Source: Streptomyces sp. NRRL S-646 (GTDB lineage Bacteria > Actinomycetota > Actinomycetes > Streptomycetales > Streptomycetaceae). Taken from it: 64,000 bases of DNA. Shown in pieces: positions 19,703-62,129 of the stretch. Position 1 is the stretch's first letter. Every line of letters begins with the position of its first letter. Below the pieces are notes generated by a model. The model was given only the letters and a program-made list of their open reading frames with translations. It was not told where the DNA came from and did no database searches. The stretch spans positions 336,716-400,715 of the forward strand of contig NZ_JODC01000002.1 of NCBI RefSeq assembly GCF_000720765.1. The letters are read 5' to 3'. The position numbers and the translations under genes were made by a program.

Positions 19703-19738
19703 GTTGCGGCACATGAGATGTGTGCCGCATTGAGCAAC
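19703..19738. promoter_or_regulatory. Tandem betaine-regulon operators and a 9-bp inverted repeat upstream of mscR
   Basis: Two 17-mers of the shared operator are offset by 19 bases: GTTGC-GGCACAT-GAGAT at 19703 and GTGCC-GCATTGA-GCAAC at 19722. Superimposed is an inverted repeat, TGCGGCACA (19705-19713) and TGTGCCGCA (19721-19729), a possible LysR site. The region serves mscR and possibly lysR. Confidence 0.6.
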
Positions 19739-19774
19739 ATCTGACTGAGGTCTCGTACCAGCCGAGGAGTGGCC

Positions 19775-20860
19775 ATGACGCACCAGGTCCGTGGAGTCGT
19801 CGCGCGGGGCAAGGGCGCCCCCGTCAGCCTGGAGACGATCATCGTGCCCGATCCCGGACCGGGCGAGGCGCTGGTGAAGATCGAGGCCTGCGGGGTCTGT
19901 CACACCGATCTGCACTACCGCGAGGGGGGCATCAATGACGACTTCCCCTTCCTGCTGGGCCACGAGGCCGCGGGTGTGGTGGAGGCGGTGGGGGAGGGCG
20001 TCACCGATGTCGCCCCCGGTGACTTCGTCATCCTCAACTGGCGTGCGGTGTGCGGGCAGTGCCGGGCCTGTCTGCGCGGCCGGCCCTGGTACTGCTTCAA
20101 CACCCACAACGCCAAGCAGAAGATGACCCTGGAGGACGGCACCGAACTGTCCCCGGCGCTGGGTATCGGCGCGTTCGCGGAGAAGACGCTGGTCGCGGCG
20201 GGGCAGTGCACCAAGGTCGACCGTGCAGCCTCCGCGGCCGCCGCCGGTCTGCTGGGCTGCGGCGTGATGGCGGGCATCGGCGCCGCGATCAACACCGGCA
20301 ACGTCGGCCGCGGCGACAGCGTGGCGGTCATCGGCTGCGGTGGCGTCGGCGACGCCGCGATCGTCGGGTCGAACCTGGCCGGCGCCGCGAAGATCATCGC
20401 GGTGGACCTGGACGACCGGAAGCTGGAGACCGCCCGCAAGCTGGGCGCGACCCACACCGTCAACTCCAAGGAGTCCGACCCCGTCGAGGCGATCCGCGAG
20501 CTGACCGGCGGCCACGGCGCCGACGTGGTCATCGAGGCGGTCGGCCGCCCCGAGACGTACAAGCAGGCCTTCTACGCCCGCGACCTCGCCGGCACGGTCG
20601 TCCTGGTCGGTGTGCCGACCCCGGAGATGAAGCTGGATCTGCCGCTGCTGGACGTCTTCGGCCGCGGCGGATCGCTGAAGTCGAGTTGGTACGGCGACTG
20701 CCTGCCCTCCCGCGACTTCCCGATGCTCATCGACCTCTATCTGCAGGGCCGCCTGAACCTGGACGCCTTCGTCACCGAGACCATCGCTCTCGACGAGGTC
20801 GAGAAGGCCTTCGAGCGGATGCACGGCGGCGACGTGCTGCGCTCGGTGGTGGTGCTCTGA
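19775..20860 (+). CDS. mscR: S-(hydroxymethyl)mycothiol dehydrogenase
   Basis: A 361-residue zinc-dependent class III-type alcohol dehydrogenase. ATG at 19775 follows GAGGAG. Catalytic zinc ligands are in [10 protein letters not shown] and GHEAAG, structural zinc ligands in [15 protein letters not shown], and the NAD fold in [22 protein letters not shown]. The enzyme oxidises the formaldehyde-mycothiol adduct to S-formylmycothiol. The betaine oxygenase downstream releases formaldehyde at each demethylation, which explains the location. It is translationally coupled by ATGA to the metallo-hydrolase. Confidence 0.92.
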
Positions 20861-21489
20861 TGGCGGCACGCATCGAACACCTCGTCACCTCGGGCACGTT
20901 CTCGCTGGACGGCGGCACCTGGGACGTCGACAACAACGTGTGGATCATCGGCGACGACCACGAGGTGATCGTCATCGACGCGGCCCATGACGCCGAGGCC
21001 ATCGCCGAGGCCGTCGGGGGCCGGACCCTGCGGGCGATCGTGTGCACCCACGCCCACAACGACCACATCGACGCCGCGCCCGGCCTCGCGGAGCGCACCG
21101 GCGGGCCGGTCCTCCTCCATCCGGACGACCTGCCGCTGTGGAAGCAGACCCACCCGGAGCGGGTGCCCGACGCCGAACTGGCCGACGGCCAGGTCCTGAC
21201 GGTGGCGGGCGTCGACCTGACCGTGCTGCACACGCCCGGCCACGCCCCCGGAGCGGTCTGTCTGTACGCGCCGGCGCTCGGCGCACTCTTCAGCGGTGAC
21301 ACGCTCTTCGCCGGCGGCCCAGGGGCCACGGGAAGGTCGTACAGCCACTTCCCGACCATCATCGAGTCCATCCGCGAACGGCTGCTGGCCCTGCCCGGCG
21401 ACACCGTCGTGCACACCGGTCACGGGGACACGACGACCATCGGCGCGGAGGCCCCGCACCTGCAGGACTGGATCGCACGCGGTCACTGA
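20860..21489 (+). CDS. MBL-fold metallo-hydrolase, probably S-formylmycothiol hydrolase
   Basis: A 209-residue metallo-beta-lactamase-fold protein with the metal-binding motif THAHNDHID at residues 62-70, then HTPGHAPGAV, FSGDTLFAGG and a final HTGHGD. The length and motifs are those of glyoxalase II-like hydrolases. Its ATG overlaps the mscR stop, and mscR-MBL pairs are recurrent in actinobacteria, so hydrolysis of S-formylmycothiol to formate is the likely role (inference from context). Confidence 0.85.
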   Translation: MAARIEHLVTSGTFSLDGGTWDVDNNVWIIGDDHEVIVIDAAHDAEAIAEAVGGRTLRAIVCTHAHNDHIDAAPGLAERTGGPVLLHPDDLPLWKQTHPERVPDAELADGQVLTVAGVDLTVLHTPGHAPGAVCLYAPALGALFSGDTLFAGGPGATGRSYSHFPTIIESIRERLLALPGDTVVHTGHGDTTTIGAEAPHLQDWIARGH

Positions 21490-21543
21490 CCTGCTGACCT
21501 GCTCGAAGGCACTGATCCCGGTGCCGACCCCTGCCCTGACCCT

Positions 21544-21579
21544 GTTGCTCATCGTGCGCCAAGTTGCATGAAGAGCAAC
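21544..21579. promoter_or_regulatory. Upstream tandem operator pair of the ferredoxin promoter
   Basis: GTTGC-TCATCGT-GCGCC at 21544 and a perfect GTTGC-ATGAAGA-GCAAC at 21563, offset 19 bases. They lie upstream of the -35 box at 21613. Confidence 0.6.
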
Positions 21580-21612
21580 ATCCGGCAGGGGTCAACAGGG
21601 CCTCTGAACTCC

Positions 21613-21680
21613 TTGACAAGGGTTCAGGGCGACCTCAGACTGATGTTGCGCTTACCGCAATCCGTTTCGTTATACGCACC
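21613..21680 (+). promoter_or_regulatory. Promoter with tandem operators for ferredoxin/reductase/oxygenase unit
   Basis: TTGACA at 21613-21618, then 17 bases and a weak -10 CAGACT at 21636. The operator GTTGC-GCTTACC-GCAAT (21644-21660) begins directly after the -10, and a second site GTTTC-GTTATAC-GCACC follows at 21664 (offset 20). A protein bound here would block initiation. The same arrangement recurs at 57315-57382. Confidence 0.7.
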
Positions 21681-21688
21681 GAGGTGTC

Positions 21689-22051
21689 ATGATGATTCCC
21701 GTGTGCCGTCTCGCGGATCTCCCGCGAGGTGAGGCCTTCCGGCTCGACATAGATCCGCCGGTCTCGGTGTTCCATACCGACGACGGCGAGGTCTTCGCCA
21801 TCGACGACACCTGCACCCACCAGGACGCCTCGCTCGCCGACGGCTGGCTGGAGGGCTGCGAGGTGGAGTGCCCGCTGCACGCTTCGAAGTTCGACCTGCG
21901 CACCGGCGCCGTCGACGCCCCGCCGGCCAAGCTGCCGGTGCGGACGCACGAGGTGGTCGTCGAGGACGGCATGATCTACGTCCAGGTGTCGACCGACGCT
22001 CCCAACCTGCCGCCCTGCATCGCCTCCCGTCTTGCCGGGGGTCCCGCGTGA
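21689..22051 (+). CDS. Rieske [2Fe-2S] ferredoxin
   Basis: A 120-residue Rieske ferredoxin of the bacterial oxygenase type. Cluster ligands are CTHQDASL and CPLHASKF. It is nearly identical in sequence to the ferredoxin at 57392. It probably carries electrons between the adjacent FAD reductase and the Rieske oxygenase at 23342. The stop overlaps the reductase GTG start. Tandem operators lie just upstream. Confidence 0.92.
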   Translation: MMIPVCRLADLPRGEAFRLDIDPPVSVFHTDDGEVFAIDDTCTHQDASLADGWLEGCEVECPLHASKFDLRTGAVDAPPAKLPVRTHEVVVEDGMIYVQVSTDAPNLPPCIASRLAGGPA

Positions 22052-23208
22052 GGACGGTCGCCGTGGTCGGCGCCTCGCTGGCCGGCCTGTCGGCGGCGCG
22101 CTCACTGCGCAAGCAGGGCTACGACGGACGGCTCGTCGTCATCGGCGACGAGACCCACCGCCCGTACGACAGGCCCCCGCTGTCCAAGGAGTTCCTGGCC
22201 GGCACGATCGGCGAAGCCGACCTCGTGCTGGAGACGGACGACGAGGACCTGCAGGCCGAGTGGCTGCTCGGCGCGCGCGCCACCGGACTCGAGCGGACAG
22301 AGCGAGCCCTGCGGCTCGCCGACGGCAGCCGGCTCCGCGCGGACGGCATCGTCATCGCGACCGGTGCCGCCGCGCGCAGGCTGCCCGGGGCCGAGGGCCT
22401 TTCCGGAGTGCACACCCTGCGCACCCTGGACGACGCCCGCGCCCTGCGGGACGAACTGGCCCGCGGCGGTCGGCTGGTGGTGATCGGCGGCGGTTTCATC
22501 GGCGCCGAGGTGGCCTCCACCGCGTACGCCCTCGGGCTCGACGTGACGGTGATCGAGGCGGCCCCGACGCCGCTTGCGGGCCCGCTCGGCGAGACCATGG
22601 GCGCCGTGGTTTCCGGCCTCCACGCCGACCACGGAGTACGGCTGTTGTGCGGCGTGGGCGTCAAGGGGCTCAGCGGCGAGCGGCAGGTCGACGCCGTTCT
22701 GCTGGAGGACGGCCGCAGTGTCCCCGCCGACATCGTCGTCGTCGGCGTGGGCGCACGCCCGTGCGTCGAGTGGCTGGAAGGCTCCGGCGTCGCGCTCGAC
22801 AACGGCGTGAAGTGCGGCGCGGACGGGCGCACCAGCCTCGCCGGCGTGGTCGCGGTCGGCGACTGCGCCAACTGGTACGACCCCCGGGCGGGCGCCCACC
22901 GCCGCGTCGAGCACTGGACCGGTGCGCGCGAGCGCCCGGACGCCGCCATCGCCACGCTGCTGGCGGGCGGTGCGGTGGAACCGGGGGTGCCCCGGCCGCC
23001 GTACTTCTGGTCCGACCAGTACGGCGTGAAGATCCAGTTCGCCGGTCATGCGGCCGGCGCCGACAGTGTGACGGTCGAGGAGGGCGTCGCGGACGACCGC
23101 AACGTCCTGGCCGTCTACCGGCGTGCCGGACAACCGGTCGCCGTGCTCGGGATGAACCAGCCGCGGCTGTTCACCCGCTGGCGCAAGCAACTGAGCGCTT
23201 CGCTGTGA
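22048..23208 (+). CDS. FAD/NAD(P)H ferredoxin reductase
   Basis: A 386-residue pyridine nucleotide-disulfide-type reductase of the oxygenase-coupled class. FAD-binding motif [20 protein letters not shown] at the N-terminus, [12 protein letters not shown] typical of this class, NAD motif [16 protein letters not shown] near residue 147, and VVAVGDCANW for the FAD ribityl chain. GTG at 22048 overlaps the ferredoxin stop. It would supply electrons to the ferredoxin. A paralogue lies at 62164. Confidence 0.93.
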   Translation: MRTVAVVGASLAGLSAARSLRKQGYDGRLVVIGDETHRPYDRPPLSKEFLAGTIGEADLVLETDDEDLQAEWLLGARATGLERTERALRLADGSRLRADGIVIATGAAARRLPGAEGLSGVHTLRTLDDARALRDELARGGRLVVIGGGFIGAEVASTAYALGLDVTVIEAAPTPLAGPLGETMGAVVSGLHADHGVRLLCGVGVKGLSGERQVDAVLLEDGRSVPADIVVVGVGARPCVEWLEGSGVALDNGVKCGADGRTSLAGVVAVGDCANWYDPRAGAHRRVEHWTGARERPDAAIATLLAGGAVEPGVPRPPYFWSDQYGVKIQFAGHAAGADSVTVEEGVADDRNVLAVYRRAGQPVAVLGMNQPRLFTRWRKQLSASL

Positions 23209-23233
23209 GTGCCGTGATGTGTCGTCTTTCTCC

Positions 23234-23310
23234 TGCGGCGCCGTTGTGGCTGGTCGCGCCCCGCGGCGAAGCCGCATATCGATACAGCCCCGCGCCCCTA
23301 CGGGGCGCTT
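23234..23310. repeat. Dispersed repeat, family A (full-length copy)
   Basis: The 133-base gap before the oxygenase gene holds a three-part element: gttgtggctggtcgcgc, a hairpin around gcggcgaagccgcatatcgat, and a perfect stem GCGCCCCTACGGGGCGC at 23292-23308. Related copies are at 3246, 37202, 57861, 58018 and 59052. Confidence 0.8.
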
Positions 23311-23341
23311 CCCCTCTCCCACGTGTCCCGAGGAGTGCACC

Positions 23342-24472
23342 GTGACCTCGACCAGCCTGCCGGACAGCCTGATCGCCACCCTTCCCGGCTCCTCCTACAC
23401 GGATCCGGCGATCTTCGCCCAGGAGCAGGAGCGCATATTCGAGACCATGTGGTTCTGCGTCGCACGCTCCTCCGAGCTGGCCAAGCCCGGCGCCTTCCGC
23501 ACCGTCGACGTGGGCCGCGAGAGCATCCTCGTCGCCCGCGCCCGGGACAACTCGATCCGCGCCTACTTCAACGTGTGCCGGCACCGCGGCGCCAAGCTCT
23601 GCACCGAGGAGACCGGCGAGGTCAAGCGGGCCTTCCAGTGCCCGTACCACGCCTGGACGTACGACCTCAACGGCAAGCTGGTCGCGGCGCCCAACCTCAC
23701 CAAGATGCCCGACGTCGGCCGCACCGAGTACGGCCTGGTGAGCGTGGCCGTCCGTGAATGGCTCGGCTACGTCTGGGTGTGCCTGGCGGAGAACCCGCCC
23801 TCCTTCGAGGAGGACGTCATCGGCGAGATCGTCGCCCGCCTCGGCGACGTGGAGTCGATCGAGCACTACGACATCGACAACCTGTCCGTCGGCAAGCGGA
23901 TCGTCTACGACGTCAAGGCGAACTGGAAGCTCATCATCGAGAACTTCATGGAGTGCTACCACTGCGCCACGATCCACCCCGAACTCACCGAGGTGCTCCC
24001 GGAGTTCGCCGACGGCTATGCCGCCCAGTACTACGTCGGGCACGGGGCCGAGTTCGGTGAGGAGGTGCAGGGTTTCACCGTCGACGGCTCGGAGGGCCTG
24101 GACCGCATCCCGGGGGTCGCCGACGACCAGGACCGCCGCTACTACGCGATCACGGTCAAGCCGCAGGTCTTCATCAACCTCGTCCCCGACCATGTGATCT
24201 TCCACCGGATGTACCCGGTGGCCGTCGACCGCACGATCGTGGAGTGCGACTGGCTCTACCTGCCGCACGTCGTCGAGAGCGGCAAGGACGTCAGCCGGTC
24301 CGTGGAGCTCTTCGACCGCGTCAACCGCCAGGACTTCGACGCATGCGAGCGCACACAGCCCGGCATGAGCTCCCGGATGTACGCCAAGGGTGGCGTCCTG
24401 GTGCCCAGCGAGCACCACATCGGAGCCTTCCACGACTGGGTCAACGAGCGGCTGGGCCTCTCCCAGGGGTGA
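23342..24472 (+). CDS. gbcA: Rieske oxygenase alpha subunit, probable glycine betaine monooxygenase
   Basis: A 376-residue ring-hydroxylating-type oxygenase. GTG at 23342 follows GAGGAG. Rieske ligands are CRHRG and QCPYHAW (residues about 79-103); mononuclear iron ligands lie in ENFMECYHCATIHPEL near residue 205. Members with this spacing demethylate quaternary amines (GbcA, stachydrine demethylase). Here the flanking choline and betaine genes point to glycine betaine to dimethylglycine plus formaldehyde. Electron donors are encoded directly upstream. It converges with iclR, one base apart. Confidence 0.88.
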   Translation: MTSTSLPDSLIATLPGSSYTDPAIFAQEQERIFETMWFCVARSSELAKPGAFRTVDVGRESILVARARDNSIRAYFNVCRHRGAKLCTEETGEVKRAFQCPYHAWTYDLNGKLVAAPNLTKMPDVGRTEYGLVSVAVREWLGYVWVCLAENPPSFEEDVIGEIVARLGDVESIEHYDIDNLSVGKRIVYDVKANWKLIIENFMECYHCATIHPELTEVLPEFADGYAAQYYVGHGAEFGEEVQGFTVDGSEGLDRIPGVADDQDRRYYAITVKPQVFINLVPDHVIFHRMYPVAVDRTIVECDWLYLPHVVESGKDVSRSVELFDRVNRQDFDACERTQPGMSSRMYAKGGVLVPSEHHIGAFHDWVNERLGLSQG

Positions 24473-24473
24473 C

Positions 24474-25271
24474 TCAGCCCAGGTAGCCCATCCGGTGGCT
24501 GATCTCCTCCGCACCCTTGATCAGCACCGGGGCGAGCTCGCGCATCCGCTCCTCCGTGAAGCGGTAGGAGGGGCCGGATGCCGTGACCGCCGCGATGACC
24601 TCGCCGTCCCGGTCCAGAACCGGGGCGGCCATGGCGTGCAGGCCGATCTCCAGCTCCTCCTTGGTCCAGGCGTAGCCGGCCTCCCGCACCTCGGCGAGGT
24701 TCTTCTCGAGCCTCGCCTTCGAGGTGATGGTGTGCGGGGTGACCTTCTTCAGGCCGGACTCGGCCAGCAGCGCGGCGCGCTCCTTGGCGGGCAGGTATGC
24801 GAGCAGGACCTTGCCGCTCGACGTCGCGTGCAGCGGCGTCAGCTGGCCGACCCAGTTGTGCGCGGTGACCGCTCCGGGGCCGCGCACCTGGTACAGGTTG
24901 ATCGCGTAGTGCTCCTGCAGCACCGCGATGTTGACCGTCTCACCGATCTCCTCGGCGAGCCGCTCGCAGACCGGGCGGCCCTGCTGCGTGATGTCGATGC
25001 GTCCCGTCACCGCGCCGGCCAGGCGTACGATGCCGAAGCCGAGCCGGTACTTGCCGCGCTCGCCCGCCTGCTCCACCAGACCGCGCGCCTCCAGGGCGCC
25101 GAGAAGGCGGAAGGCGGTGGACTTGTGAACATCGATCTCGGCGGCCACCTCGCTGACCCCTGCCTCGCCGCGCTGCGCGAGGATCTCCAGGACGCTGATT
25201 GCCCGGTCGACCGACTGCACTCCGCCGGCCTGCGAATTTGACGTTTCGGTGTCTTGGCTGTGGTTGCTCAC
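24474..25271 (-). CDS. IclR-family regulator (copy 1), probable regulator of the betaine locus
   Basis: A 265-residue IclR protein. The winged helix-turn-helix spans residues 18-75 (VQSVDRAISVLEILAQRGEA, then VHKSTAFRLLGALEARGLVE), followed by the effector-binding domain. GTG at 25271 is assigned by comparison with copy 2 at 59147, which has the same length and starts MSN. The gene sits between gbcA and betA and is divergent from betA. Operator-like sites overlap its start and the betA promoter, consistent with autoregulation. Confidence 0.92.
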   Translation of the reverse strand: MSNHSQDTETSNSQAGGVQSVDRAISVLEILAQRGEAGVSEVAAEIDVHKSTAFRLLGALEARGLVEQAGERGKYRLGFGIVRLAGAVTGRIDITQQGRPVCERLAEEIGETVNIAVLQEHYAINLYQVRGPGAVTAHNWVGQLTPLHATSSGKVLLAYLPAKERAALLAESGLKKVTPHTITSKARLEKNLAEVREAGYAWTKEELEIGLHAMAAPVLDRDGEVIAAVTASGPSYRFTEERMRELAPVLIKGAEEISHRMGYLG

Positions 25272-25298
25272 TCCGAAACTATACGCGCAGTAAACAAC
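25263..25298. promoter_or_regulatory. Degenerate tandem operators at iclR copy 1 start
   Basis: GTTGC-TCACTCC-GAAAC at 25263 and TACGC-GCAGTAA-ACAAC at 25282, offset 19. The first overlaps the iclR GTG, so part of the match is constrained by coding. Confidence 0.45.
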
Positions 25299-25337: not shown

Positions 25338-25373
25338 GTTGCGTGGCTCGCAACCTAGTGCGTATAGCGCTAC
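25338..25373 (+). promoter_or_regulatory. Tandem operators upstream of betA
   Basis: A perfect GTTGC-GTGGCTC-GCAAC at 25338-25354 and a weaker AGTGC-GTATAGC-GCTAC at 25357-25373, offset 19. They lie 50-85 bases before the betA start. Confidence 0.7.
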
Positions 25374-25422
25374 TGGTACTAGCATGCCTCGCGTATCTAC
25401 GGCGCGAGCGAGACGAGGCACC

Positions 25423-27090
25423 ATGGCTCCCCAATACGACTTCGTCATCGTCGGCGGCGGTTCGGCCGGCAGTGCACTGGCGAACAGACTCTCAGCTGAT
25501 CCGGCGAACAAGGTGCTGGTCCTGGAGGCAGGCCGCCCCGACTACCCCTGGGACGTCTTCATCCACATGCCCGCGGCACTGACGTACCCGATCGGCAGCC
25601 GCTTCTACGACTGGAAGTACGAGTCCGAGCCCGAGCCCCACATGGGCGGCCGGCGCATCTACCACGCGCGCGGCAAGGTGCTCGGCGGCTCCAGCAGCAT
25701 CAACGGCATGATCTTCCAGCGCGGCAACCCCATGGACTACGAGCGCTGGGCGGCCGACCCCGGCATGGAGACCTGGGACTACGCGCACTGTCTGCCCTAC
25801 TTCCGGCGCATGGAGAACTGCCTGGCGGCCGACCCGGACGACGAGTTCCGCGGCCACGACGGCCCCCTCGTCCTGGAGCGCGGCCCGGCCGACAACCCCC
25901 TCTTCGGCGCCTTCCTCAAGGCCACCCAGGAGGCCGGCTACGCCCCGACGGACGACGTCAACGGCTACCGGCAGGAGGGCTTCGCCAAGTTCGACCGCAA
26001 CGTCCACCGCGGACGCCGTCTTTCGGCCTCGAAGGCGTACCTCAAGCCCGCCAGGAAGCGGCCCAACCTCACCGTCACGACCCGCGCCCTGGTCACCCGC
26101 GTCCTCTTCGAGGGCAAGAAGGCCGTCGGCGTCGAGTACCAGCGCGGCAAGGGCGCCAAGCAGCAGGTCCGCGCCAAGGAAGTCATCCTGTGCGGCGGCG
26201 CGATCAACTCCCCGCAGCTGCTGCAGCTGTCCGGCGTCGGCAACGCGGAGGAGCTGCGCGCCCTCGGCATCGACGTCGTCCACGACCTGCCTGGCGTCGG
26301 CGAGAACATGCAGGACCACCTGGAGGTGTACATCCAGTACGCCTGCAAGCAGCCCGTCTCCATGCAGCCGTATCTGGCCAAGTGGCGCGCCCCCTTCATC
26401 GGCCTGCAGTGGCTGTTCCGCAAGGGCCCCGCGGCCACGAACCACTTCGAGGCCGGCGGCTTCGCCCGTAGCAACGACGACGTGGACTACCCCAACCTGA
26501 TGTTCCACTTCCTGCCCATCGCGGTCCGCTACGACGGCTCCGTGCCCGCGGGCGGACACGGCTACCAGGTCCACGTGGGCCCCATGTACTCCGACGCCAT
26601 CGGCTCCGTGAAGATCAAGAGCAAGGACCCGCGCGAGCACCCGGCGCTGCGCTTCAACTACCTCTCCACCGAGCAGGACCGCCGCGAGTGGGTCGAGGCG
26701 ATCCGCGTCGCCCGCAAGCTCCTCAACCAGCCCGCGCTCGCCCCCTTCAACAACGGCGAGGTCTCGCCCGGCCCGTCCGTGGAGACCGACGAGGAGATCC
26801 TCGACTGGGTCGCCAAGGACGGCGAGACCGCCCTGCATCCGTCCTGCACCTGCAAGATGGGCACCGACGAGATGTCCGTCGTCGACCCCACCAGCATGCG
26901 CGTGCACGGCGTGGAGGGCCTGCGGGTCGTCGACGCGTCGGTGATGCCGTACGTCACCAACGGCAACATCTACGCGCCGGTGATGATGGTCGCCGAGAAG
27001 GCCGCCGACCTGATCCTCGGCAAGGAGCCCCTTGCACCGTCGAAGGCCGCGTACTACCGCCACCGCGACGCCCAGAAGCAGGCCGGGTAG
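25423..27090 (+). CDS. betA: Choline dehydrogenase (GMC oxidoreductase)
   Basis: A 555-residue glucose-methanol-choline flavoprotein, the normal BetA length. FAD-binding motif [19 protein letters not shown] at the N-terminus, GMC signature 1 around [18 protein letters not shown], signature 2 [15 protein letters not shown], and the catalytic region [11 protein letters not shown] with the C-terminal [17 protein letters not shown]. It oxidises choline to betaine aldehyde. ATG at 25423 follows GACGAGG. The next gene begins 4 bases after its stop. Confidence 0.93.
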
Positions 27091-27093
27091 GCC

Positions 27094-27930
27094 TTGGGTG
27101 CCGCCGGCCTGAGGGCGCTGCTGGACAGCGTCCGCTACGAGGTGCTGCCCGCCAGGGCCACCGAGGACAAGGTCCTCGCCCATGTCCCGCGCGACGTCGT
27201 GGTCACGGTCACGGCGTCGCCGGTCAAGGGCCTGGAGCCGACCCTCGATCTGACGGGCCGGCTCGCCGCGCACGGCTACCGCGTCGTGCCGCACGTGCCG
27301 GCGCGGCTGCTGCGGGACGAGGTGCATCTGAAGGAGGTCGTCGAGCGGCTGCGCGAGGCGGGCGTGGACGACGTCTTCGTGCCGGCGGGCGACGCGGACC
27401 CGCCGGCCGGGGCCTACGACGGGGCCCTGCCGGTGCTGCGCAGGCTCACCGAGCTGGGCGACCCCTTCGCCCGCGTGGGCATCACGGGCTATCCCGAGAG
27501 CCACCCCCTCATCCACGACGACATCACCATCCAGGCGATGTGGGACAAGCGCGCGCACGCCACGTACATCGTCAGCAACCTCTGCTTCGATCCGCGCGTG
27601 CTCGGGGAGTGGATCGCCCGGATACGGCGGCGGGACGTCGACCTGCCCGTGTATCTGGGTGTCGCCGGGCCCGTGCAGCGGACCAAGCTGCTGGCGATGG
27701 CGACGAAGATCGGGGTGGGGGAGTCGACGCGCTTCCTGACGAAGCACGCGTCGTGGTTCCTGCGGTTCGCTGCCCCTGGGGGCTATTCACCGGACCGCCT
27801 GCTGCAGCGCAGCGAGCCTGCCCTCACGGCGCCTTCGGCGGGGGTGGCGGGCCTGCACATGTTCACTTTCAACCAGATCGAAGAGACCGAAGTGTGGCGC
27901 CGGGCGGTGCTGGAGCGGCTCGGCGGCTGA
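27094..27930 (+). CDS. Methylenetetrahydrofolate reductase-like protein
   Basis: A 278-residue TIM-barrel protein of the MetF superfamily. TTG at 27094 is the only start that uses the full conserved frame and lies 3 bases after betA. Family-like segments are VTVTASPVKGLEPTLDL, FVPAGDADPPAGAYDGAL, ITGYPESHP and HMFTFNQIEETEVWRRA. It is probably co-transcribed with betA. A folate-linked role in one-carbon recovery from betaine methyl groups fits, but the canonical FAD-site residues were not verified, so a related activity is possible. Confidence 0.82.
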   Translation: MGAAGLRALLDSVRYEVLPARATEDKVLAHVPRDVVVTVTASPVKGLEPTLDLTGRLAAHGYRVVPHVPARLLRDEVHLKEVVERLREAGVDDVFVPAGDADPPAGAYDGALPVLRRLTELGDPFARVGITGYPESHPLIHDDITIQAMWDKRAHATYIVSNLCFDPRVLGEWIARIRRRDVDLPVYLGVAGPVQRTKLLAMATKIGVGESTRFLTKHASWFLRFAAPGGYSPDRLLQRSEPALTAPSAGVAGLHMFTFNQIEETEVWRRAVLERLGG

Positions 27931-28729: not shown

Positions 28730-28765
28730 GGTGCGTATTGCACAACAAGGTGAGCGATACGCAAC
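28730..28765. promoter_or_regulatory. Tandem operators upstream of purU
   Basis: GGTGC-GTATTGC-ACAAC at 28730 and GGTGA-GCGATAC-GCAAC at 28749, offset 19. They begin 15 bases before the purU start on the minus strand. Confidence 0.6.
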
Positions 28766-28843: not shown

Positions 28844-28908
28844 TTGACGTCCGTCTGGTCATTCGTCAGGGTGTTCCACCACAAGCAATTGAATGCACGA
28901 TGCGCAAC
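28844..28908 (+). promoter_or_regulatory. Promoter and tandem operators of betB
   Basis: A -35 like TTGACG at 28844 is followed by GTTCC-ACCACAA-GCAAT at 28873 and AATGC-ACGATGC-GCAAC at 28892, offset 19. Confidence 0.55.
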
Positions 28909-28932: not shown

Positions 28933-31510
<2,578 letters not shown>

Positions 31511-31511
<1 letters not shown>

Positions 31512-33511
31512 TGACCGTCGCCGTGGAGAAACCCGAGAAAACAGAGGCCGCAGAGCCTGTTGCGCCCGTCAAGGCGGCGCGGAGGATCAGCCGGCCCATG
31601 GTGCTCGCCGCGATCGTGGTCGTCTGGCTGTTGCTGTTCGCCGTACTGCGCGGAAAGCAGACGCTGTCGCTGGCGGCGGCCGACCTGACCGATCTGCACC
31701 GGTGGATCAACGACTTCAACGACTCCATCGGCGCCAACCGCAACTCCAACCCGCTCTTCCTGTACTTCTTCAACGAGATCCGGCTGGTCATCGACAACCT
31801 GGTGACCTTCATCCAGCACCTGATCTCGCAGCCCTCCGGTGCCCGCCCGGTCCCTGAGATCGGCTGGCTCGGTGTCGTCGGCATCGCCGGCTACGTCTCC
31901 TGGGCCGTGGGCAACTGGCGGGTGGCGCTGCTGGCCGTCGCCGGGTTCACCTTCTTCGGGCTGCAGGGGCTGTGGCAGGAGAGCATGGACACCCTCTCCC
32001 TCACCCTGTCCGCGGTGTTCGTGGCGCTGCTGTTCGCGATCCCGCTCGGGGTGTGGGCGGGGCTGTCGGACCGGTTCAACCGGATCGCCACGCCCTTCCT
32101 GGACTTCATGCAGACGATGCCGACCTTCGTCTACCTGGCACCGCTGACCCTGTTCTTCCTCATCGGCGGTGCCTCCGCCACCATCGCCACCGTGATCTAC
32201 GCGGCCCCGCCGACGATCCGCATCACCGCGCACGCCATCCGCAACGTCTCCAAGACGACGGTCGAGGCGGCCGACTCTCTCGGCGCCACCCGCCGCCAGT
32301 CGCTGCTGAAGGTCCTGCTGCCGATGTCCAAGCGGACCGTGGTGATGGGCGTCAACCAGACCATCATGGCCGCCCTGGCCATGGTGACCATCGCGGCTCT
32401 GATCAACGCGCCAGGCCTCGGTGTGATCGTCCTGCAGGCGCTGCAGTCGCTCGACGTCGGCACGGCCTTCAATGCGGGCCTCGCCATCGTGGTCATGGCG
32501 ATCGTCCTGGACCGGGTGACCACCGCGGCCGCCGCACGCGAGGAGAACGCACGGAACGCCAAGCACGACTTCACGAAGTGGCGGCGACCGCTGCTGGGCG
32601 CCGGTGCCGCCGTCACTGCGGTCCTGATCTATCTGTCGCACACCTACCTGTGGGCGGCCGACTTCCCCGGTGACGGCACCGTCGGCCGTCACATCGCGAG
32701 CGCGGCGGACAGTGCGACCAACTGGGCGCAGGACAGCCTCTCGGGCGTGACCAACGCCATCCGTGACGTCATCACCAACGGCCTGCTCAATCCGTTCCAG
32801 ACCCTGGTCACCGACTCCCCGTGGTGGCTCGTCGGCGCGGTGCTGGTCGCGCTGGGCGTGGTGCTCGGCGGCTGGAAGTCCGGGGTCACCACGGCCGTGT
32901 GCGTGGGCCTGCTGGTCGGCACCGGTCTGTGGTCGGACGCCATGACCACGCTGGCCTCGACGCTCGTCGCGACGGTGCTGGTGATGGTGCTCGGCATCGT
33001 CTTCGGGGTGTGGATGGGGCGCAGCATGATGGTGGACCGGCTGATCCGGCCCACTCTGGACGCCGCCCAGGTCATGCCGCCCTTCGTGTACCTCGTGCCG
33101 TTCCTCGCGCTGTTCGGCCCCACGCGTTTCACGGCCATCGTGGCCGCGATCGTCTACGGGGCACCCGTGGCCATGAAGATCATCGCGGACGGGATCCGGG
33201 CCGTGCCCGAGACCACCGTGGAGGCGGCCACCTCCGCCGGGTGCAACACCTGGCAGATCATCACCAAGGTTCAACTGCCGATGTCACGCAGTGCCCTGAC
33301 GCTTGCGACCAACCAGGGCCTGATCTATGTGCTGTCGATGGTTGTTGTGGGCGGCCTGGTAGGTGCAGGCGCTCTCGGCTACGACGTCGTGGCCGGTTTC
33401 TCACAGCAGCAGCTGTACGGGAAGGGGCTGGCCGCGGGTCTGGCCATCGTCCTTCTCGGAGTCATGTTCGACCGGATCACTCAGGCCGCGGCGCGTCGCG
33501 CCGGCGCTTAA
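31511..33511 (+). CDS. proW: Glycine betaine ABC transporter permease with two fused transport domains
   Basis: A 666-residue permease, about twice the usual ProW length, containing two complete BPD_transp_1 domains. Domain 1 (about 170-370) has the EAA-type loop EAADSLGATRRQSLLKVLLP; domain 2 (about 470-660) has EAATSAGCNTWQIITKVQLP. About a dozen membrane segments are visible. One chain can thus form the entire transmembrane channel. ATG at 31511 overlaps the proV stop; GTG at 31508 is an alternative. Confidence 0.93.
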
Positions 33512-33524
33512 GGAGCACGACACC

Positions 33525-34487
33525 ATGGCAAGACACTGGCGAGCCGGCGCGGCCGGCCTGGCCGTCCTCGGCCTCACCCTCACCGCGTGCGGCGGGGCGA
33601 AGGTCGGCGACAGCTCCGCCGCGGGCTCGGGAAGCTCGGGCAAGTGCGGCACCTTCAACCTGGCCGTCAACCCGTGGGTGGGCTACGAGGCGGACGCGGC
33701 CGTCGTCGCATACGTCGCCCAGCACAACCTCGGCTGTACGGTCACCAAGAAGAACCTCAAGGAAGAGATCGCCTGGCAGGGCTTCGGCACGGGCGAGGTC
33801 GACGCGGTCCTGGAGAACTGGGGCCACCCCGACCTGGTGAAGAAGTACATCGACCAGCAGAAGACCGCCGTGGACGCCGGCCCGACCGGCAACAAGGGCA
33901 TCATCGGCTGGTACGTGCCGCCGTGGCTGGCCAAGGCGCACCCCGACATCCTCGACTACAAGAACCTCAACAAGTACGCGTCGAAGTTCAAGACGTCCGA
34001 GTCGGGCGGCAAGGGCCAGCTCCTGGACGGCGACCCGTCGTACGTCACCAACGACGAGGCGCTGGTCAAGAACCTGAAGCTGGACTTCAAGGTGGTGTAC
34101 GCGGGCAGCGAGACGGCGCTCATCCAGGCCTTCCGCACCGCCGAGAAGAACAAGCAGTGGGTGATCGGCTACTTCTACGAGCCGCAGTGGTTCCTGTCCG
34201 AGGTCCCGCTGAAGAAGGTCTCCCTGCCCGCCTACAAGACGGGCTGTGACACCGACGCGGCGAAGGTCGCCTGCGACTATCCCGTGTACAACCTGAACAA
34301 GGTCGTCAGTGCGAAGTTCGCCAAGTCCGGCAGCCCCGCCTACAACCTGGTGAAGAACTTCACCTGGACGAACGACGACCAGAACGAGGTCGCCAAGTAC
34401 ATCGCCCAGGACAAGCTGACGGACGATGCGGCGGCCAAGAAGTGGGTCGAGGCCAACAAGGACAAGGTGGACGCCTGGATCAAGTAG
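33525..34487 (+). CDS. proX: Glycine betaine-binding lipoprotein of the ProVWX transporter
   Basis: A 320-residue OpuAC-family protein with a lipoprotein signal (lipobox LTAC about residue 23). The ligand domain begins CGTFNLAVNPWVGYEAD. ATG at 33525 follows AAGGAG, 13 bases after proW. It captures glycine betaine outside the membrane for ProVW. A close paralogue is encoded at 14209-15180. It ends the operon before a strong terminator. Confidence 0.95.
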   Translation: MARHWRAGAAGLAVLGLTLTACGGAKVGDSSAAGSGSSGKCGTFNLAVNPWVGYEADAAVVAYVAQHNLGCTVTKKNLKEEIAWQGFGTGEVDAVLENWGHPDLVKKYIDQQKTAVDAGPTGNKGIIGWYVPPWLAKAHPDILDYKNLNKYASKFKTSESGGKGQLLDGDPSYVTNDEALVKNLKLDFKVVYAGSETALIQAFRTAEKNKQWVIGYFYEPQWFLSEVPLKKVSLPAYKTGCDTDAAKVACDYPVYNLNKVVSAKFAKSGSPAYNLVKNFTWTNDDQNEVAKYIAQDKLTDDAAAKKWVEANKDKVDAWIK

Positions 34488-34620: not shown

Positions 34621-37157
<2,537 letters not shown>

Positions 37158-37201
37158 GCCGTTCGTAGTGCCGCGATTGGTTGTCGATCGGCTGCTGGTT
37201 C

Positions 37202-37244
37202 GTTGTGGCTGGTCGCGCAGTTCCCCGCGCCCCTATGGGGCGCT
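37202..37244. repeat. Dispersed repeat, family A (short form)
   Basis: gttgtggctggtcgcgc followed directly by a GCGCCCC/GGGGCGC stem. The central hairpin seen at 23271 is missing here. It lies in the 119-base gap before folD. Confidence 0.75.
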
Positions 37245-37276
37245 CTACTCCCGCCCAGTTAGAAGGAGTGCCGTCG

Positions 37277-38137
37277 GTGACTGCCCAAGTGCTTGACGGG
37301 AAGGCGACCGCCGCCGAGATTCGCCGCGAACTCGCCGAGCGCGTCGCGAAGTTGACCGCGACCGGCGGGCGGCCGCCGGGCCTTGGCACCGTCCTCGTCG
37401 GGGACGACCCCGGCAGTCATGCCTACGTCGGCGGGAAGCACCGGGACTGTGCGCAGGTCGGGATCGCCTCCATCCGGCGTGATCTGCCCGCGGACGCGAC
37501 CCAGCAGCAGGTCGAGGACGTCATCGACGAACTCAACGCCGACACGGCCTGCACCGGTTACATCGTCCAGCTCCCGCTGCCGCGCCACCTGGACGCCAAC
37601 GCCGTACTGGCCCGCATGGACCCGGCCAAGGACGCCGACGGACTGCACCCCGTCAACCTCGGCCGGCTCGTGCTGGGCACCGAGGCGCCGCTGCCCTGCA
37701 CCCCGCGCGGCATCGTCGAACTGCTCCGCCGCTACGAGGTGCCCCTCGCGGGCGCCCGGGTGTGCGTGATCGGACGCGGGATCACGGTCGGACGGCCCAT
37801 CGGCCTGCTCCTCACCCGCCGTTCCGAGAACGCCACCGTCACCCTCTGCCACACCGGCACCAAGGGCCTGTCCTGGCATGTCCGCGAGGCGGACATCGTC
37901 ATCGCGGCGGCCGGATCGCCCGGACTGATCACCAAGGACATGCTGCGCCCCGGCGCGGCCGTCCTGGACGTCGGCATCACCCGCACCGAGAACGGGCTGG
38001 TCGGCGACATCCACCCGGAGGCCGCCGAGGTCGCCGGCTGGCTCGCGCCGATGCCCGGGGGAGTGGGCCCCATGACCCGCGCGATGTTGCTGGCCAACGT
38101 CGTCGAGGCCGCCGAGAGGAACGCGAACGCCGTATGA
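37277..38137 (+). CDS. folD: Bifunctional methylenetetrahydrofolate dehydrogenase/cyclohydrolase
   Basis: A 286-residue FolD. Signature segments: [16 protein letters not shown] with the catalytic lysine, [29 protein letters not shown] and [16 protein letters not shown] with [19 protein letters not shown]. It oxidises methylene-tetrahydrofolate, produced by dimethylglycine and sarcosine oxidases, to formyl-tetrahydrofolate. GTG at 37277 follows AGAAGGAG at 8 bases. Its stop overlaps the glyA ATG. Confidence 0.95.
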
Positions 38138-40649: not shown

Positions 40650-40661
40650 GGAGCCCGAACC

Positions 40662-46177: not shown

Positions 46178-46182
46178 GCGGG

Positions 46183-57231: not shown

Positions 57232-57314
57232 CGCGGTGCGGCGGGACCTGCCGGCACGGGCGACTCCATGACAGCTGCGGGACGGCTCCTTGACGGCTGC
57301 CCCCGGGCGACTCC

Positions 57315-57382
57315 TTGACAAGGGGTGAGGGCGACCCGAAACTGGCGTTGCGCTTCGCGCATCAGGTTTCGTAATACGCATC
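57315..57382 (+). promoter_or_regulatory. Promoter and tandem operators of ferredoxin copy 2
   Basis: TTGACA at 57315-57320, 17 bases, -10 GAAACT at 57338. GTTGC-GCTTCGC-GCATC at 57347 and GTTTC-GTAATAC-GCATC at 57366 follow, offset 19. The architecture mirrors 21613-21680. Confidence 0.72.
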
Positions 57383-57391
57383 GAGGTGGTC

Positions 57392-59039: not shown

Positions 59040-59098
59040 GGGCGCGGGGCCGTGTCGATGTGCGGCTCCGCCGCGCGGGCGCGACCAGCCACGACGAT
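59040..59098. repeat. Dispersed repeat, family A (reverse orientation)
   Basis: ggggcgcggggc, then cgatgtgcggctccgccgcg and gcgcgaccagccacgac, the reverse complement of the element at 23234. It occupies the gap between folP and iclR copy 2. Confidence 0.75.
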
Positions 59099-59146
59099 GC
59101 CGCAGACGACCGAGGGCACTTCGCGGCACACCCGCGGAGCGAGGCC

Positions 59147-59944
59147 TCAGCCCAGGTACCCCATCCGATGGCTGATCTCCGCCGCCCCCTTGAGCAGCAC
59201 CGGCGCCAGCTCGTGCATGCGCTCCTCGGTGAACCGGTACGCAGGGCCGGAGGCACTGAGCGCGGCGATGACCTCGCCGTCACGGGAGCGGATCGGCGCC
59301 GCCATGGCGTGCAGTCCGATCTCTAGTTCCTCCAGCGTCACCGCATATCCGCGCTCACGGGCCGCGGTGAGGTCCTTCTCCAGCTTCGCCCTCGCCGTCA
59401 GCGTGTGGGGCGTGAGCTTCTGCAGCCCGGACGTCGCGAGCACGTCCGCGCATTCCTGAGGCGACAGATGGGCCAGCAGGATCTTGCCGCTGGACGTGGC
59501 GTGGACCGGGGTGAGCTGCCCGACCCAGTTGTGCGTGCCGACCGCGCCCGGGCCCCGGACCTGGTAGAGGTTGACGGCGTAATGCTCCTGCAGGACCGCG
59601 ATGTTGACGGTCTCGCCGATCTCCTCGCTGAGCCGCTCGCACACCGGCCGGCCCTGCTGGGTGATGTCGAGCCGGCCGGTGACCGCGCCGGCCAGCCGCA
59701 CGATCCCGAAGCCGAGCCGGTACTTGCCGCGCTCGGCCGTCTGCTCCACCAGGCCGCGTGCCTCCAGCGCGCCGAGCAGGCGGAACGCGGTCGACTTGTG
59801 GACGTCGATCTCGCCGGCCACCTCGCTGACGCCCGCCTCGCCGCGCTGGGCGAGGATCTCCAGGACGCTGACGGCACGGTCGACGGACTGCACCCCGTTC
59901 ACCGCGGGAGCCGCTGTTTCGCCGTCTGCCGTGTAGTTGCTCAT
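59147..59944 (-). CDS. IclR-family regulator (copy 2)
   Basis: A 265-residue IclR protein, the same length as copy 1 and very similar throughout, with an almost identical helix-turn-helix (VHKSTAFRLLGALEARGLVE) and the same C-terminus (EISHRMGYLG). The recognition helices are the same, so both copies should bind the same operators. A perfect operator overlaps its own start codon, implying autoregulation. It sits just downstream of the purU remnant on the same strand. Confidence 0.93.
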   Translation of the reverse strand: MSNYTADGETAAPAVNGVQSVDRAVSVLEILAQRGEAGVSEVAGEIDVHKSTAFRLLGALEARGLVEQTAERGKYRLGFGIVRLAGAVTGRLDITQQGRPVCERLSEEIGETVNIAVLQEHYAVNLYQVRGPGAVGTHNWVGQLTPVHATSSGKILLAHLSPQECADVLATSGLQKLTPHTLTARAKLEKDLTAARERGYAVTLEELEIGLHAMAAPIRSRDGEVIAALSASGPAYRFTEERMHELAPVLLKGAAEISHRMGYLG

Positions 59945-59952
59945 GACGCAAC
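59936..59952. promoter_or_regulatory. Perfect operator over the iclR copy 2 start codon
   Basis: GTTGC-TCATGAC-GCAAC; the ATG (59944-59942, minus strand) lies in the spacer. The overlap with coding constrains the left arm, but the right arm is outside the gene. Confidence 0.65.
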
Positions 59953-59973
59953 TATAGGCATTTGTGTCGGGCG

Positions 59974-60744
59974 TCAGCGGAAGACGACGGTGCAGTGCCC
60001 GTTGACCAGGACGCGGCTCTCGCTGTGCCACTGCACGGCCCGGGCGAGCACCTGCGTCTCGACGTCGCGGCCGATGGTGACGAGGTCGTCCGGGTCGCGC
60101 GAGTGGTCCACGCGGACCACGTCCTGCTCGATGATCGGGCCTGTCGTCGAGGTCGGAGGTGACGTAGTGAGCCGTGGCCCCGACCAGCTTGACGCCGCGC
60201 CGGTACGCCTGGACGTAGGGCCGGGCGCCCTTGAAGCTCGGCAGGAAGGAGTGGTGGATGTTGATGGCCCGTCCGTCGAGCTGCTTGCACAGGTCGTCGG
60301 AGAGGATCTGCATGGAGCGGGCGAGGACCACGAGGTCGATGTCGAGTTCGTCGACGAGGCGCAGCAGTTGTGCCTCCGCCTCATCCTTGGTCTCCTTCGT
60401 CACCGGGATGTGGTGGAAGGGGATGCCGTAGCTCTGCGCCAGCGGCTCGAACTCGCGGCGGTTGGAGACGATCGCCGGGATCTCGATGTTGAGCGCGCCC
60501 GTGGACTTGCGGAAGAGCGGGTCGTTCAGGCAGCGGCCGAACTTCGACACCGTGATCAGGGTGCGGGTCGGGGTGGCGGCGTCGTGCAGCTGCCAGGTGA
60601 TCCGGTACGCCTCGGCGACCGGGCCGAAGCCGGCGCGCAGTACCTCCGGTGAGACGTCCGGGTCCAGGACGTCGAAGTGCACCCGCATGAAGAAGCGGTC
60701 CTGCAGCCGGTCGTCGAACTGCCGGCTCTCCAGGATGTTGCCGG
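59974..60744 (-). pseudogene. purU: Formyltetrahydrofolate deformylase, copy 2, 5'-truncated and frameshifted
   Basis: The minus strand reads PurU from GNILESRQFDDRLQDRFFMR through [20 protein letters not shown] and [13 protein letters not shown], then an extra base (T at 60142 on the plus strand) shifts the frame; the true end ([12 protein letters not shown] to NGHCTVVFR) continues in another frame to TGA at 59974. The first ~35 residues, including the start, are absent: at about 60744 the DNA switches to a phosphatase gene on the opposite strand. It is inactive. Confidence 0.88.
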
Positions 60745-61989
60745 GCCTTCGCCGAGGAACTGGCCGCCCGCGCGGCCGTCGCGGTCGACAACGCGCGCCG
60801 CTTCACCCGCGAACACACCATGGCGGTCACCCTGCAGCGCAGCCTGCTGCCCCGCACCCTGCCCGAACAGTCGGCCCTGGAGGTGGCCCACCGCTATCTG
60901 CCCGCCCAGGCCGGAGTGGGCGGGGACTGGTTCGACGTCATCCCGCTGCCCGGCACCCGCGTCGCCCTGGTCGTCGGCGACGTCGTCGGCCACGGTCTGC
61001 ACGCCGCCGCGACCATGGGCCGGCTGCGCACCGTCGTCCACAACTTCTGTGCCCTCGACCTGGCCGCCGACGAACTCCTCGGCCATCTGGACGAGTTGGT
61101 CGCCCACATCGACGAGACCGAGACCGCCGACGAAGAGAGCGAAGGCATCACCGGCGCCACCTGCCTGTTCGCGATCTACGACCCGGTCTCCGGCCGGTGC
61201 AGCATCGCCCGGGCCGGCCATCCCGGCCCCGCCCTCGTCCACCCCGACGGCATCGTCACCTTCCCCGAGGTCCCCGTCTCACCACCGCTGGGCCTGGGCT
61301 CCGGCCTGCCGGTCGAGACGGCCGAACTGCACCTGTCCGAGGGCTCCCGGCTCGCCCTGTACACCGATGGGCTCATCGAGGCCCGCGACCGCGACATCGA
61401 CACCGGGCTCGGGCTCCTGCACACCGCCCTGGCGCACCCCGGCCAGACGCCGGAGCAGGCCTGCCAGGCGGTGCTCGACGCCCTGCTGTCCGACCGGCCG
61501 GGCGACGGCATCGCCCTCCTGGTGGCGCAGACCCGGCTGCTGGACCCGGACCGCGTCGCCTACTGGGACGTGCCCGCCGATCCCGCCTCCCTCGGCCCCA
61601 TCCGCGCCACCTGCGCCCGCCGGCTGGAGGCCTGGGGCCTGGACGAGATCGCCTTCAGCACCGAACTCATCCTCAGTGAACTGGTCACCAACGCCATCCG
61701 CTACGGCAGCGATCCCATCCGGCTCCGGCTCCTGCACGACCGGGACAGCCTGATCTGCGAGGTCGCAGACGGCAGCAGCACCTCCCCGCACCTGCGCCGC
61801 GCGGCCACCACCGACGAGGGCGGCCGGGGCCTGTTCCTGGTCGCCCACTACGCCCGGCGCTGGGGAACCCGCTACACCCCGCGTGGCAAGGTCATCTGGA
61901 GCGAACGGTCCCTGGACGCCGCACCGGCAGAGCTCGACGCGACCATGGCCGACCTGCTGCTCGACCAGTGGGACGAGCCAATGCTGTGA
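60745..61989 (+). pseudogene. SpoIIE phosphatase with anti-sigma kinase domain, 5'-truncated
   Basis: The frame enters mid-protein at AFAEELAARAAVAVDNARRF, the end of a GAF domain, and continues through a complete SpoIIE phosphatase (GVGGDWFDVIPLPGTRVALV, VVGDVVGHGLHAAATMG, ARAGHPGP, LYTDGLIE) and a HATPase (ELILSELVTNAIRYGSDP; DEGGRGLFLVAHY). The PAS/GAF part is deleted at the junction with purU. An internal ATG at 60820 could give a 389-residue phosphatase-kinase without its sensor. That product is possible but unproven. Confidence 0.8.
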
Positions 61990-62011
61990 CCGCTCCCGAG
62001 GGATCCTGAAG

Positions 62012-62028
62012 GTTGCGCATCGCGCAAC
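62012..62028. promoter_or_regulatory. Perfect palindromic operator upstream of reductase copy 2
   Basis: GTTGC-GCATCGC-GCAAC, the best-matching copy of the regulon site; palindromic arms extend one base further (GGTTGCGC / GCGCAACC). Confidence 0.72.
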
Positions 62029-62063
62029 CTTCTGCGCTATTGCGCACTGATGCCGTCCATCTA

Positions 62064-62129
62064 TTGACAAGCCCCCGACCTCGCCCCAAGCATGTTGCGT
62101 ATAGCGAGCTTTGTTGTGTAATTCGAGAC
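62064..62129 (+). promoter_or_regulatory. Promoter and tandem operators of reductase copy 2
   Basis: TTGACA at 62064-62069 with a poor -10 near 62088. GTTGC-GTATAGC-GAGCT at 62094 and GTTGT-GTAATTC-GAGAC at 62113, offset 19, follow. Confidence 0.62.

Follow-up and report, generated by a model that had tools for sequence, protein, structure and literature searches.

GbdR and BetI belong to the AraC and TetR families, respectively, and SoxR of Bacillus is a sigma54-dependent regulator; to our knowledge, none of the three is an IclR protein. All three act in the same choline/betaine/sarcosine pathway (for SoxR and sigma54, see PMC4941409) as the genes considered here, which lie in a 64-kb stretch of Streptomyces sp. 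NRRL S-646 DNA (contig NZ_JODC01000002.1, positions 336,716 to 400,715; hereafter called the window). In this window, a tandem operator composed of two 17-bp palindromes, GTTGC-N7-GCAAC, offset by exactly 19 bp, stands before genes of choline, betaine and one-carbon (C1) metabolism and accompanies two iclR genes, iclR1 (24474..25271, reverse strand) and iclR2 (59147..59944, reverse strand).

Tandem palindromes with centres 18-22 nucleotides (nt) apart have been described for 94 IclR orthologous groups, where they are associated with the binding of a tetramer (Suvorova and Gelfand 2021, PMC8222616), so the architecture as such is already known. The offset of 19 in the window and in all three sets of loci examined below falls within this range. 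The group 1 motifs of that study have the same 17-bp odd-length palindrome with a GTT-11-AAC layout. Compared to the group 1 pattern GKTYCRYW3-4RYGRAMC, the length, the GTT..AAC ends, C5/G13 and the tendency of the core fit, with arms that were here preselected by mismatch count. In contrast, positions 4/14 are G/C here (GTTGC..GCAAC) and Y/R in the published consensus (GTTYC..GRAAC). The word "betaine" is absent from the main text of PMC8222616, and searches of the open-access literature, judged by titles and the starts of abstracts, brought up no paper on an IclR protein that controls betaine or sarcosine genes in actinobacteria; a prior prediction in the supplements of PMC8222616 is possible.

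Two described IclR proteins are informative by comparison. BhcR of Paracoccus denitrificans supplies the best NCBIfam model for IclR1 and the best IclR-type model in the open reading frame (ORF) that ends in IclR2, but the scores of 201.8 and 195.7 bits, respectively, lie far below the equivalog cut-off of 350 bits. Like BhcR (PMC11323563), IclR1 and IclR2 have the IclR fold and are encoded next to the genes that they control, putatively so in our case; BhcR controls glyoxylate assimilation and not betaine metabolism (PMC11323563). TtgV of Pseudomonas putida is an IclR-family protein with a solved DNA complex (PDB 2xrn/2xro; PMC8222616), whose recognition-helix positions align with those of IclR1. 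However, TtgV is a remote relative (E 2.3e-16), and its targets are RND efflux transporters (PMC8222616).

In the window, 10 pairs of GTTGC-N7-GCAAC have an offset of exactly 19 and 5 or fewer mismatches in the 20 arm positions. By contrast, the average over 60 dinucleotide shuffles of the window was 0.27 such pairs and the highest count 2, and each other offset from 17 to 59 gave 0-5 pairs in the window at the same threshold. Across the 10.7-Mb genome, the window accounts for five of the 8 perfect 17-mers and for each of the 5 tandem places that have 3 or fewer mismatches. The signal is pairing together with clustering, rather than loose single copies. An earlier note on this DNA had listed 17-mers at spacings of 19-20 bases. 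All of its sites are present, with position 21644 corrected to 21645, but every pair has an offset of exactly 19 and none of 20; a 19-20 offset was rejected, because only 19 stands out in the window, in 80 related loci and in further loci. The placement of two dimers on one DNA face, also proposed there, would hold approximately, as 19 bp is ≈1.8 turns.

The same arrangement recurs in related loci. A scan for IclR1 relatives used six search peptides, one of which covered the IclR N-terminus, and we analysed the best 80 loci of 327, of which 79 are labelled Streptomyces and one "Actinobacteria bacterium". All 80 contain at least one pair with 4 or fewer mismatches. Offset 19 accounts for 335 pairs, compared to at most 17 at each other offset of 17-39 and at most 38 at each of 17-79. 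In the reversed-pattern control, counts above 25 were reached at five offsets (24, 42, 54, 63 and 66; highest 61), all multiples of 3. We then tabulated gene starts that had 200 bp of upstream sequence and a protein match beginning within 30 residues of the query start (locus L110 was left out of this table). Operators were upstream of the genes for ferredoxin (fdx, 71/71), choline dehydrogenase (betA, 69/69), a BetB-like aldehyde dehydrogenase (betB, 64/64), PurU (51/51) and a dimethylglycine-oxidase-like protein (dmgo, 44/44), and also of iclR (70/80), mscR (54/62) and gbcA (37/72). By contrast, the inner-operon genes choV, choWX, choX, red (reductase), mthfr (methylenetetrahydrofolate-reductase-like) and mbl (MBL-fold hydrolase) had operators at none of 374 starts. 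The comparison of orthologous loci called for in the earlier note finds the operators at the heads of gene blocks in these 80 loci.

Twenty-nine further Streptomyces loci yielded 18 pairs at offset 19 and no more than 1 at any other offset of 17-39; in the gene-start table, 28 further Streptomyces loci had operators before mscR (13/16), iclR (11/26) and fdx (8/17). In a class-wide sample of 296 genomes from 114 genera, 39 genomes from 16 genera had an IclR1 relative (E≤1e-70). The shorter loci of this sample gave few matches and were replaced by 20 larger stretches from 19 of the 25 matching non-Streptomyces genomes. These 20 loci of other genera hold 30 pairs at offset 19, compared to at most 2 at other offsets of 17-39 and at most 4 at 17-59; 15 contain a pair with 4 or fewer mismatches, and 12 a profile match at E≤0.05 (profile described below). 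Relatives of betA, betB, gbcA, dmgo, sox, purU or mscR are present in 17 of them, and operators precede dmgo (6/11), betB (5/7), purU (4/6), fdx (4/5) and mscR (2/3). The counts per gene imply that the target set shifts between lineages. We conclude that the operator tag is real and is conserved in other actinobacteria.

For genome-wide scans, a 36-bp profile was built from 51 of the 181 distinct operators among the 335 instances in the 80 related loci, with no two sharing more than 31 of 36 bases. Applied to its own 10.7-Mb genome, the profile gave 15 strand-wise matches at E≤10, with 150 of 1597 first-look candidates scored. Fourteen of these matches are in the window, at nine of its twelve operators, and the 15th, at E 5.6, is elsewhere. 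The weak operators at 19703, 25263 and 59936 were recovered only by a window-wide profile search. Because the profile includes orthologues of the window operators, matches in the window are expected, and independent evidence comes from the absence of matches elsewhere. Within the reach of the profile, the predicted regulon appears confined to one locus. A motif scattered over the genome is rejected by the perfect-17-mer, tandem and profile scans, the last within the 150 of 1597 candidates scored. The genome scan that the earlier note had suggested thus finds the tandem motif concentrated in this locus, and its claim of a betaine/C1 regulon gains support from this confinement. Three perfect single 17-mers lie outside the window, on contigs C9, C33 and C36 of the same genome (G000), and none of them scores as a tandem operator.

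The operators have a consistent position relative to promoters. Both strands of 334 operators were read, giving 626 distinct upstream stretches, and TTGAC is present 29-33 nt upstream of the operator in 241 of these, compared to 19 for all other distances up to 80. The -10 box, assigned by eye at 17-18 nt spacing, ends 0-4 nt before the operator. This layout of TTGAC and -10 box implies that the operator should span the expected transcription start, which is the position of a repressor. In the window, 7 of 12 operators follow TTGAC at 29-32 nt, so the three promoters at which the earlier note had seen a pair right after the -10 box were an undercount. These seven, with mismatches per 20 arm positions and bit scores from the window-wide search with the 36-bp profile (R1), are the tandem operators of the mscR promoter (19703..19738, forward strand; 5 mismatches; 10.8 bits; TTGAC 31 nt upstream); of ferredoxin 1, reductase 1 and gbcA, in proximal position (21645..21680, forward; 3 mismatches; 21.8 bits; TTGACA 32 nt upstream); of the purU1 promoter (28730..28765, reverse; 4 mismatches; 21.3 bits; TTGAC 29 nt upstream); of betB and the choline transporter genes (28873..28908, forward; 4 mismatches; 16.5 bits; TTGACG 29 nt upstream); of the dmgo, folD, glyA, soxB, soxDA and soxG genes (34653..34688, forward; 3 mismatches; 22.7 bits; TTGACA 32 nt upstream); of the ferredoxin 2 promoter (57347..57382, forward; 3 mismatches; 23.8 bits; TTGACA 32 nt upstream); and of reductase 2, in proximal position (62094..62129, forward; 7 mismatches; 12.9 bits over 62094-62122; TTGAC 30 nt upstream). 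The last had been listed as the pair 62094/62113, which is present and weak, with 4 + 3 arm mismatches, and is recovered in part by the profile.

The remaining five operators are an upstream tandem operator of the ferredoxin 1 promoter (21544..21579, forward; 2 mismatches; 25.9 bits, the best match genome-wide), the tandem operator of the betA promoter (25338..25373, forward; 3 mismatches; 21.4 bits), an upstream tandem operator of the reductase 2 promoter (62012..62047, forward; 5 mismatches as a pair; 19.9 bits over 62012-62040), and one operator at each iclR gene. Both 62012 and 59936 had been described as single perfect copies. This holds for 59936, where allowing up to 5 mismatches reveals no partner at offset 19, but 62012 has one at 62031. 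The upstream pairs at 21544 and 62012 are 101 and 82 bp, respectively, before their promoter-proximal pairs. A spacing of 101-103 bp between pairs recurs 23 times in related loci and may allow looping; a commoner distance of 74-76 bp fits the iclR/betA pair, which is 75 bp here.

At both iclR genes the operator overlaps the start codon (25263-25271 and 59936-59944). The putative autoregulatory tandem operator of iclR1 (25263..25298, reverse; 5 mismatches; 10.2 bits), a pair at 25263/25282 absent from the earlier list, includes the -10 box TATAGT and the start codons GTG AGC AAC. At iclR2, a perfect single operator lies over ATG AGC AAC (59936..59952, reverse; 0 mismatches; 10.4 bits). TATAGT-N6-start is found at iclR in 79 of the 80 related loci, and the right arm of the operator coincides with the iclR codons RTG-AGC-AAC in 78. 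Codon 2 is AGC in 79 of the 80 loci; among the 1168 serine codons in the rest of these genes, 406 are AGC. DNA binding could explain this coding constraint on codon 2, and the iclR transcript is probably leaderless.

The proteins that may bind these sites are, by their predicted domains, IclR-family transcription factors. IclR1 shows long matches to several IclR-family models, spanning the helix-turn-helix and the effector domain, and to IclR structures in the PDB (e.g., 1mkm, 3.7e-34). All 82 aligned proteins of the close set share its recognition helix, HKSTAFRLL, without variation. IclR1 and IclR2 differ at 51 of 265 positions, none of them within HKSTAFRLL; their helices, called near-identical in the earlier note, are identical. 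In PMC8222616, His27 goes with G/C at motif position 10/22 and Lys28 with G/C at 7/25. In our mapping, these correspond to 4/14 and 1/17 here, both of which are G/C, and the His27 rule would explain G/C at 4/14, the sole departure from the family consensus.

In 81 Streptomyces genomes (operator, profile E≤0.01 with strict filters; IclR, E≤1e-60), operators occurred in 20 of the 36 genomes with an IclR and in none of the 45 without (Fisher p 1.6e-9, uncorrected for relatedness). Where the IclR was at least 78% identical, operators were found in 15 of 16 genomes (exception G061), compared to 5 of 20 with more distant IclRs only. Seventy of 72 operator places share a contig with an IclR, at distances up to about 14 kb. 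With looser filters and profile E≤0.05, 19 of 23 same-helix Streptomyces loci had an operator. IclRs of 55-61% identity also share the helix, and operators are nearby in most of their examined loci. Two neighbourhoods of the ≈57% sister group (L109 and L111) contain mscR and dmgo relatives, and an AllR identity for this group was dropped on account of these neighbours. Six Streptomyces loci with a changed helix (L124, L126, L127 and L131-L133) had no profile match at E≤1 and are not used as support. Loci L171-L173 encode IclR relatives (54-59%) with HKSTAFR, with no betaine-gene match and no pair of 4 or fewer mismatches in the stretch; there, the same helix perhaps serves another role.

We consider it very likely that IclR1 and IclR2 bind as dimer pairs and keep the genes of the choline-to-glycine and C1 steps repressed, with release by a metabolite of the pathway. 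The pattern of the sites, their spacing and conservation, their place relative to promoter-like sequence and, within the reach of the scans, their confinement to the locus are observed, whereas which protein binds, the tetramer, repression, the inducer and the extents of the operons are the parts of this model that we infer. Each 17-bp palindrome would take one IclR dimer, and two palindromes at the fixed 19-bp offset would take a dimer pair (tetramer), as reported for other IclR proteins. Placed at many promoters after the -10 box and over the expected start, the bound pair would block RNA polymerase. IclR1 and IclR2 would thus act mainly as repressors, and they would repress their own genes through the sites across the probably leaderless start codons. 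The predicted regulon comprises genes to take up and oxidize choline (cho, betA, betB), to demethylate betaine (ferredoxin, reductase, gbcA), to oxidize dimethylglycine and sarcosine (dmgo, sox), and to handle formaldehyde and C1 folates (mscR, purU, folD, glyA). A pathway metabolite would presumably free the DNA of repressor. The regulon is real and conserved, and its mode of action is the one to be expected from known IclR proteins.

Several results weigh against the significance of the motif or against this model. The window contains 246 single 17-mers with up to 3 mismatches, compared to 276 expected, and thus shows no enrichment of these; the reversed control pattern yields 8 perfect singles genome-wide, equal to the motif's 8, and the tandem control pattern gave 2 counts on each strand in the genome scan. 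Since perfect singles are as frequent as in the reversed control, single copies are informative by their clustering only and not by their number. At gene starts in the 80 loci, the reversed control also scored before dmgo (13/44), betB (5/64), purU (4/51), gbcA (2/72) and fdx (1/71). The betA operator, both iclR sites and both upstream pairs are without the TTGAC layout. The pattern thins in the 28 further Streptomyces loci (dmgo 1/16, gbcA 2/15, betB 0/10), and in other genera it is sparse before iclR (7/22), betA (1/8) and gbcA (0/7), with 5 of the 20 loci containing no pair of 4 or fewer mismatches. Under the strict filters (E≤0.01), no operator was found in 16 of the 36 genomes with an IclR, and under the looser ones (E≤0.05), 4 of the 23 same-helix Streptomyces loci had none. 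Moreover, the helices HKSTVSR and HKSTASR still accompany pairs in loci of other genera (L168, L175, L176, L180 and L181), which implies that helix identity is no strict key. Last, IclR, dmgo and betA almost always travel as one inherited unit, so that co-occurrence alone does not discriminate between IclR and another factor of the cluster. An attempt to separate operator from pathway by dmgo and betA searches mostly failed because of this co-inheritance. Only G058 was informative: relatives of gbcA and dmgo are present in it, no IclR was found at E≤1e-8, and 19 kb of its sequence contained no operator pair within 5 mismatches. The proposal of the earlier note that the two IclR proteins bind here is supported, as a prediction: co-occurrence, the sites over the iclR start codons, the invariant helix and the specificity rule in PMC8222616 favour it, and the variant helices that accompany the same operator in other genera and the inheritance of the cluster as a whole limit it.

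A first alternative is that IclR1 and IclR2 split the sites, one protein per sub-cluster, and respond to different inducers. Each IclR does sit in its own sub-cluster (fdx1/gbcA/bet and fdx2/red2), and 51 of 265 positions differ; however, the two proteins have the same recognition helix, and a single profile matches the operators of either sub-cluster. Such a division is possible but on balance improbable. Somewhat less probable still, and in our view unlikely, is that the IclRs bind these operators as activators, or as mixed activators and repressors, like BhcR. The BhcR model scores best of the NCBIfam models (201.8 bits), the target operon of BhcR depends on BhcR for its expression, and BhcR is reported to be an activator in vivo (PMC11323563), a further point against repression, and the upstream pairs at 21544 and 62012 leave room for an activator or a loop; by contrast, many operators start just past the -10 box and cover the expected start. 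We hold it highly doubtful that a regulator encoded elsewhere binds the motif and that the two iclR genes are no more than targets of that regulator. Whole-cluster inheritance alone could yield the co-occurrence with IclR, but the 17-bp palindrome and 19-bp offset are an architecture published for IclR proteins (PMC8222616), an IclR gene is within about 14 kb of 70 of the 72 operator places, and operators also lie close to same-helix IclRs of 55-61% identity, beside mscR and dmgo in the two neighbourhoods examined. A chance or compositional pattern without function, for which the unremarkable numbers of loose and perfect single 17-mers could be cited, is rejected by the shuffles and pair statistics, the genome scans that confine the motif to this locus and the conservation across genera, and has next to no probability.

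Returning to repression by the IclR pair, the effector pocket was compared with that of E. coli IclR, for which ligand-oxygen contacts are listed in PMC11323563; in the same source, BhcR itself departs at 161. In a by-eye mapping on one pairwise alignment, E. coli IclR Gly160, Ala161 and Asp212 correspond to Ser151, Ser152 and Thr203 in IclR1. The Ser151 and Ser152 equivalents are kept in 82 of 82 aligned proteins and Thr203 in 81 of 82. Ser241 is kept, and position 239 is Thr230 in IclR1 and Ser in 67 of 82 aligned proteins. By this mapping, IclR1 lacks the glyoxylate-type pocket of IclR, AllR and BhcR (160, 161, 212, 239 and 241). The changes at 160, 161 and 212 make glyoxylate an unlikely effector, and glyoxylate by analogy to BhcR was set aside on this by-eye mapping; a betaine-pathway metabolite is the natural guess.

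A broader proposal stands, in our judgement, at an even balance. It holds that an IclR lineage spread over the class Actinomycetes can be recognized by the helix HKST(A/V)(F/S)R together with the 19-bp tandem operator and serves as the dedicated master repressor for the entire route from choline through glycine to C1 units. The effector of this lineage would be a methylated amine or an intermediate of C1 metabolism, and not glyoxylate, and its autoregulatory operator would be built into the start codons of its own gene. If this is true, protein coding and DNA binding constrain the same bases at the iclR start. The analysis provides a testable regulator, operator and target list for betaine/C1 metabolism in Streptomyces and other actinobacteria. 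The motif permits annotation of the regulon in further genomes, and the operator/IclR pair is a candidate sensor of the betaine pathway.

The genes of the locus were annotated with NCBIfam and Pfam models. On the forward strand are mscR, for S-(hydroxymethyl)mycothiol dehydrogenase, with an MBL-fold hydrolase gene (19769..21489); Rieske-type ferredoxin 1, ferredoxin reductase 1 and a GbcA-like oxygenase subunit (21689..24472; GbcA match 225.8 bits, below the equivalog cut-off of 670); betA with a distant methylenetetrahydrofolate-reductase-like protein (25420..27930); the betB-like aldehyde dehydrogenase with choline/betaine ABC transporter genes (28933..34487; BADH match 590.2 bits, below the cut-off of 668.6); and the dimethylglycine-oxidase-like protein, folD, glyA, soxB, soxDA and soxG (34698..44472). 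The proposed regulator IclR1 has 265 amino acids and IclR-family matches below equivalog cut-offs, in addition to its PDB relatives; its paralogue IclR2 is identical at 214 of 265 residues. Dihydropteroate synthase, GcvH, heterotetrameric sarcosine oxidase and two copies of PurU are also matched at the locus. Because the GbcA, BADH, SoxG and IclR subfamily matches are below cut-offs, exact substrates are deduced from the whole gene set.

A second sub-cluster (57386-63779) comprises ferredoxin 2, which is of the Rieske type like ferredoxin 1, dihydropteroate synthase, iclR2, purU2, reductase 2 and gcvH, with operators of its own; the contig stops at the end of the window, so this sub-cluster is seen without its downstream part. 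Both purU copies (27987-28715 and 59945-60688, reverse strand) look interrupted near the C-terminal part: purU1 matches its profile only to position 210 of 286, where the frame ends, and the purU2 frame continues into iclR2 as a single long ORF. These interruptions could be assembly errors or decay. The gap at 23209-23341 is without the gbcA-proximal operator that is present in 37 of 72 related loci, and instead contains a G+C-rich stretch with an inverted repeat, possibly an insertion.

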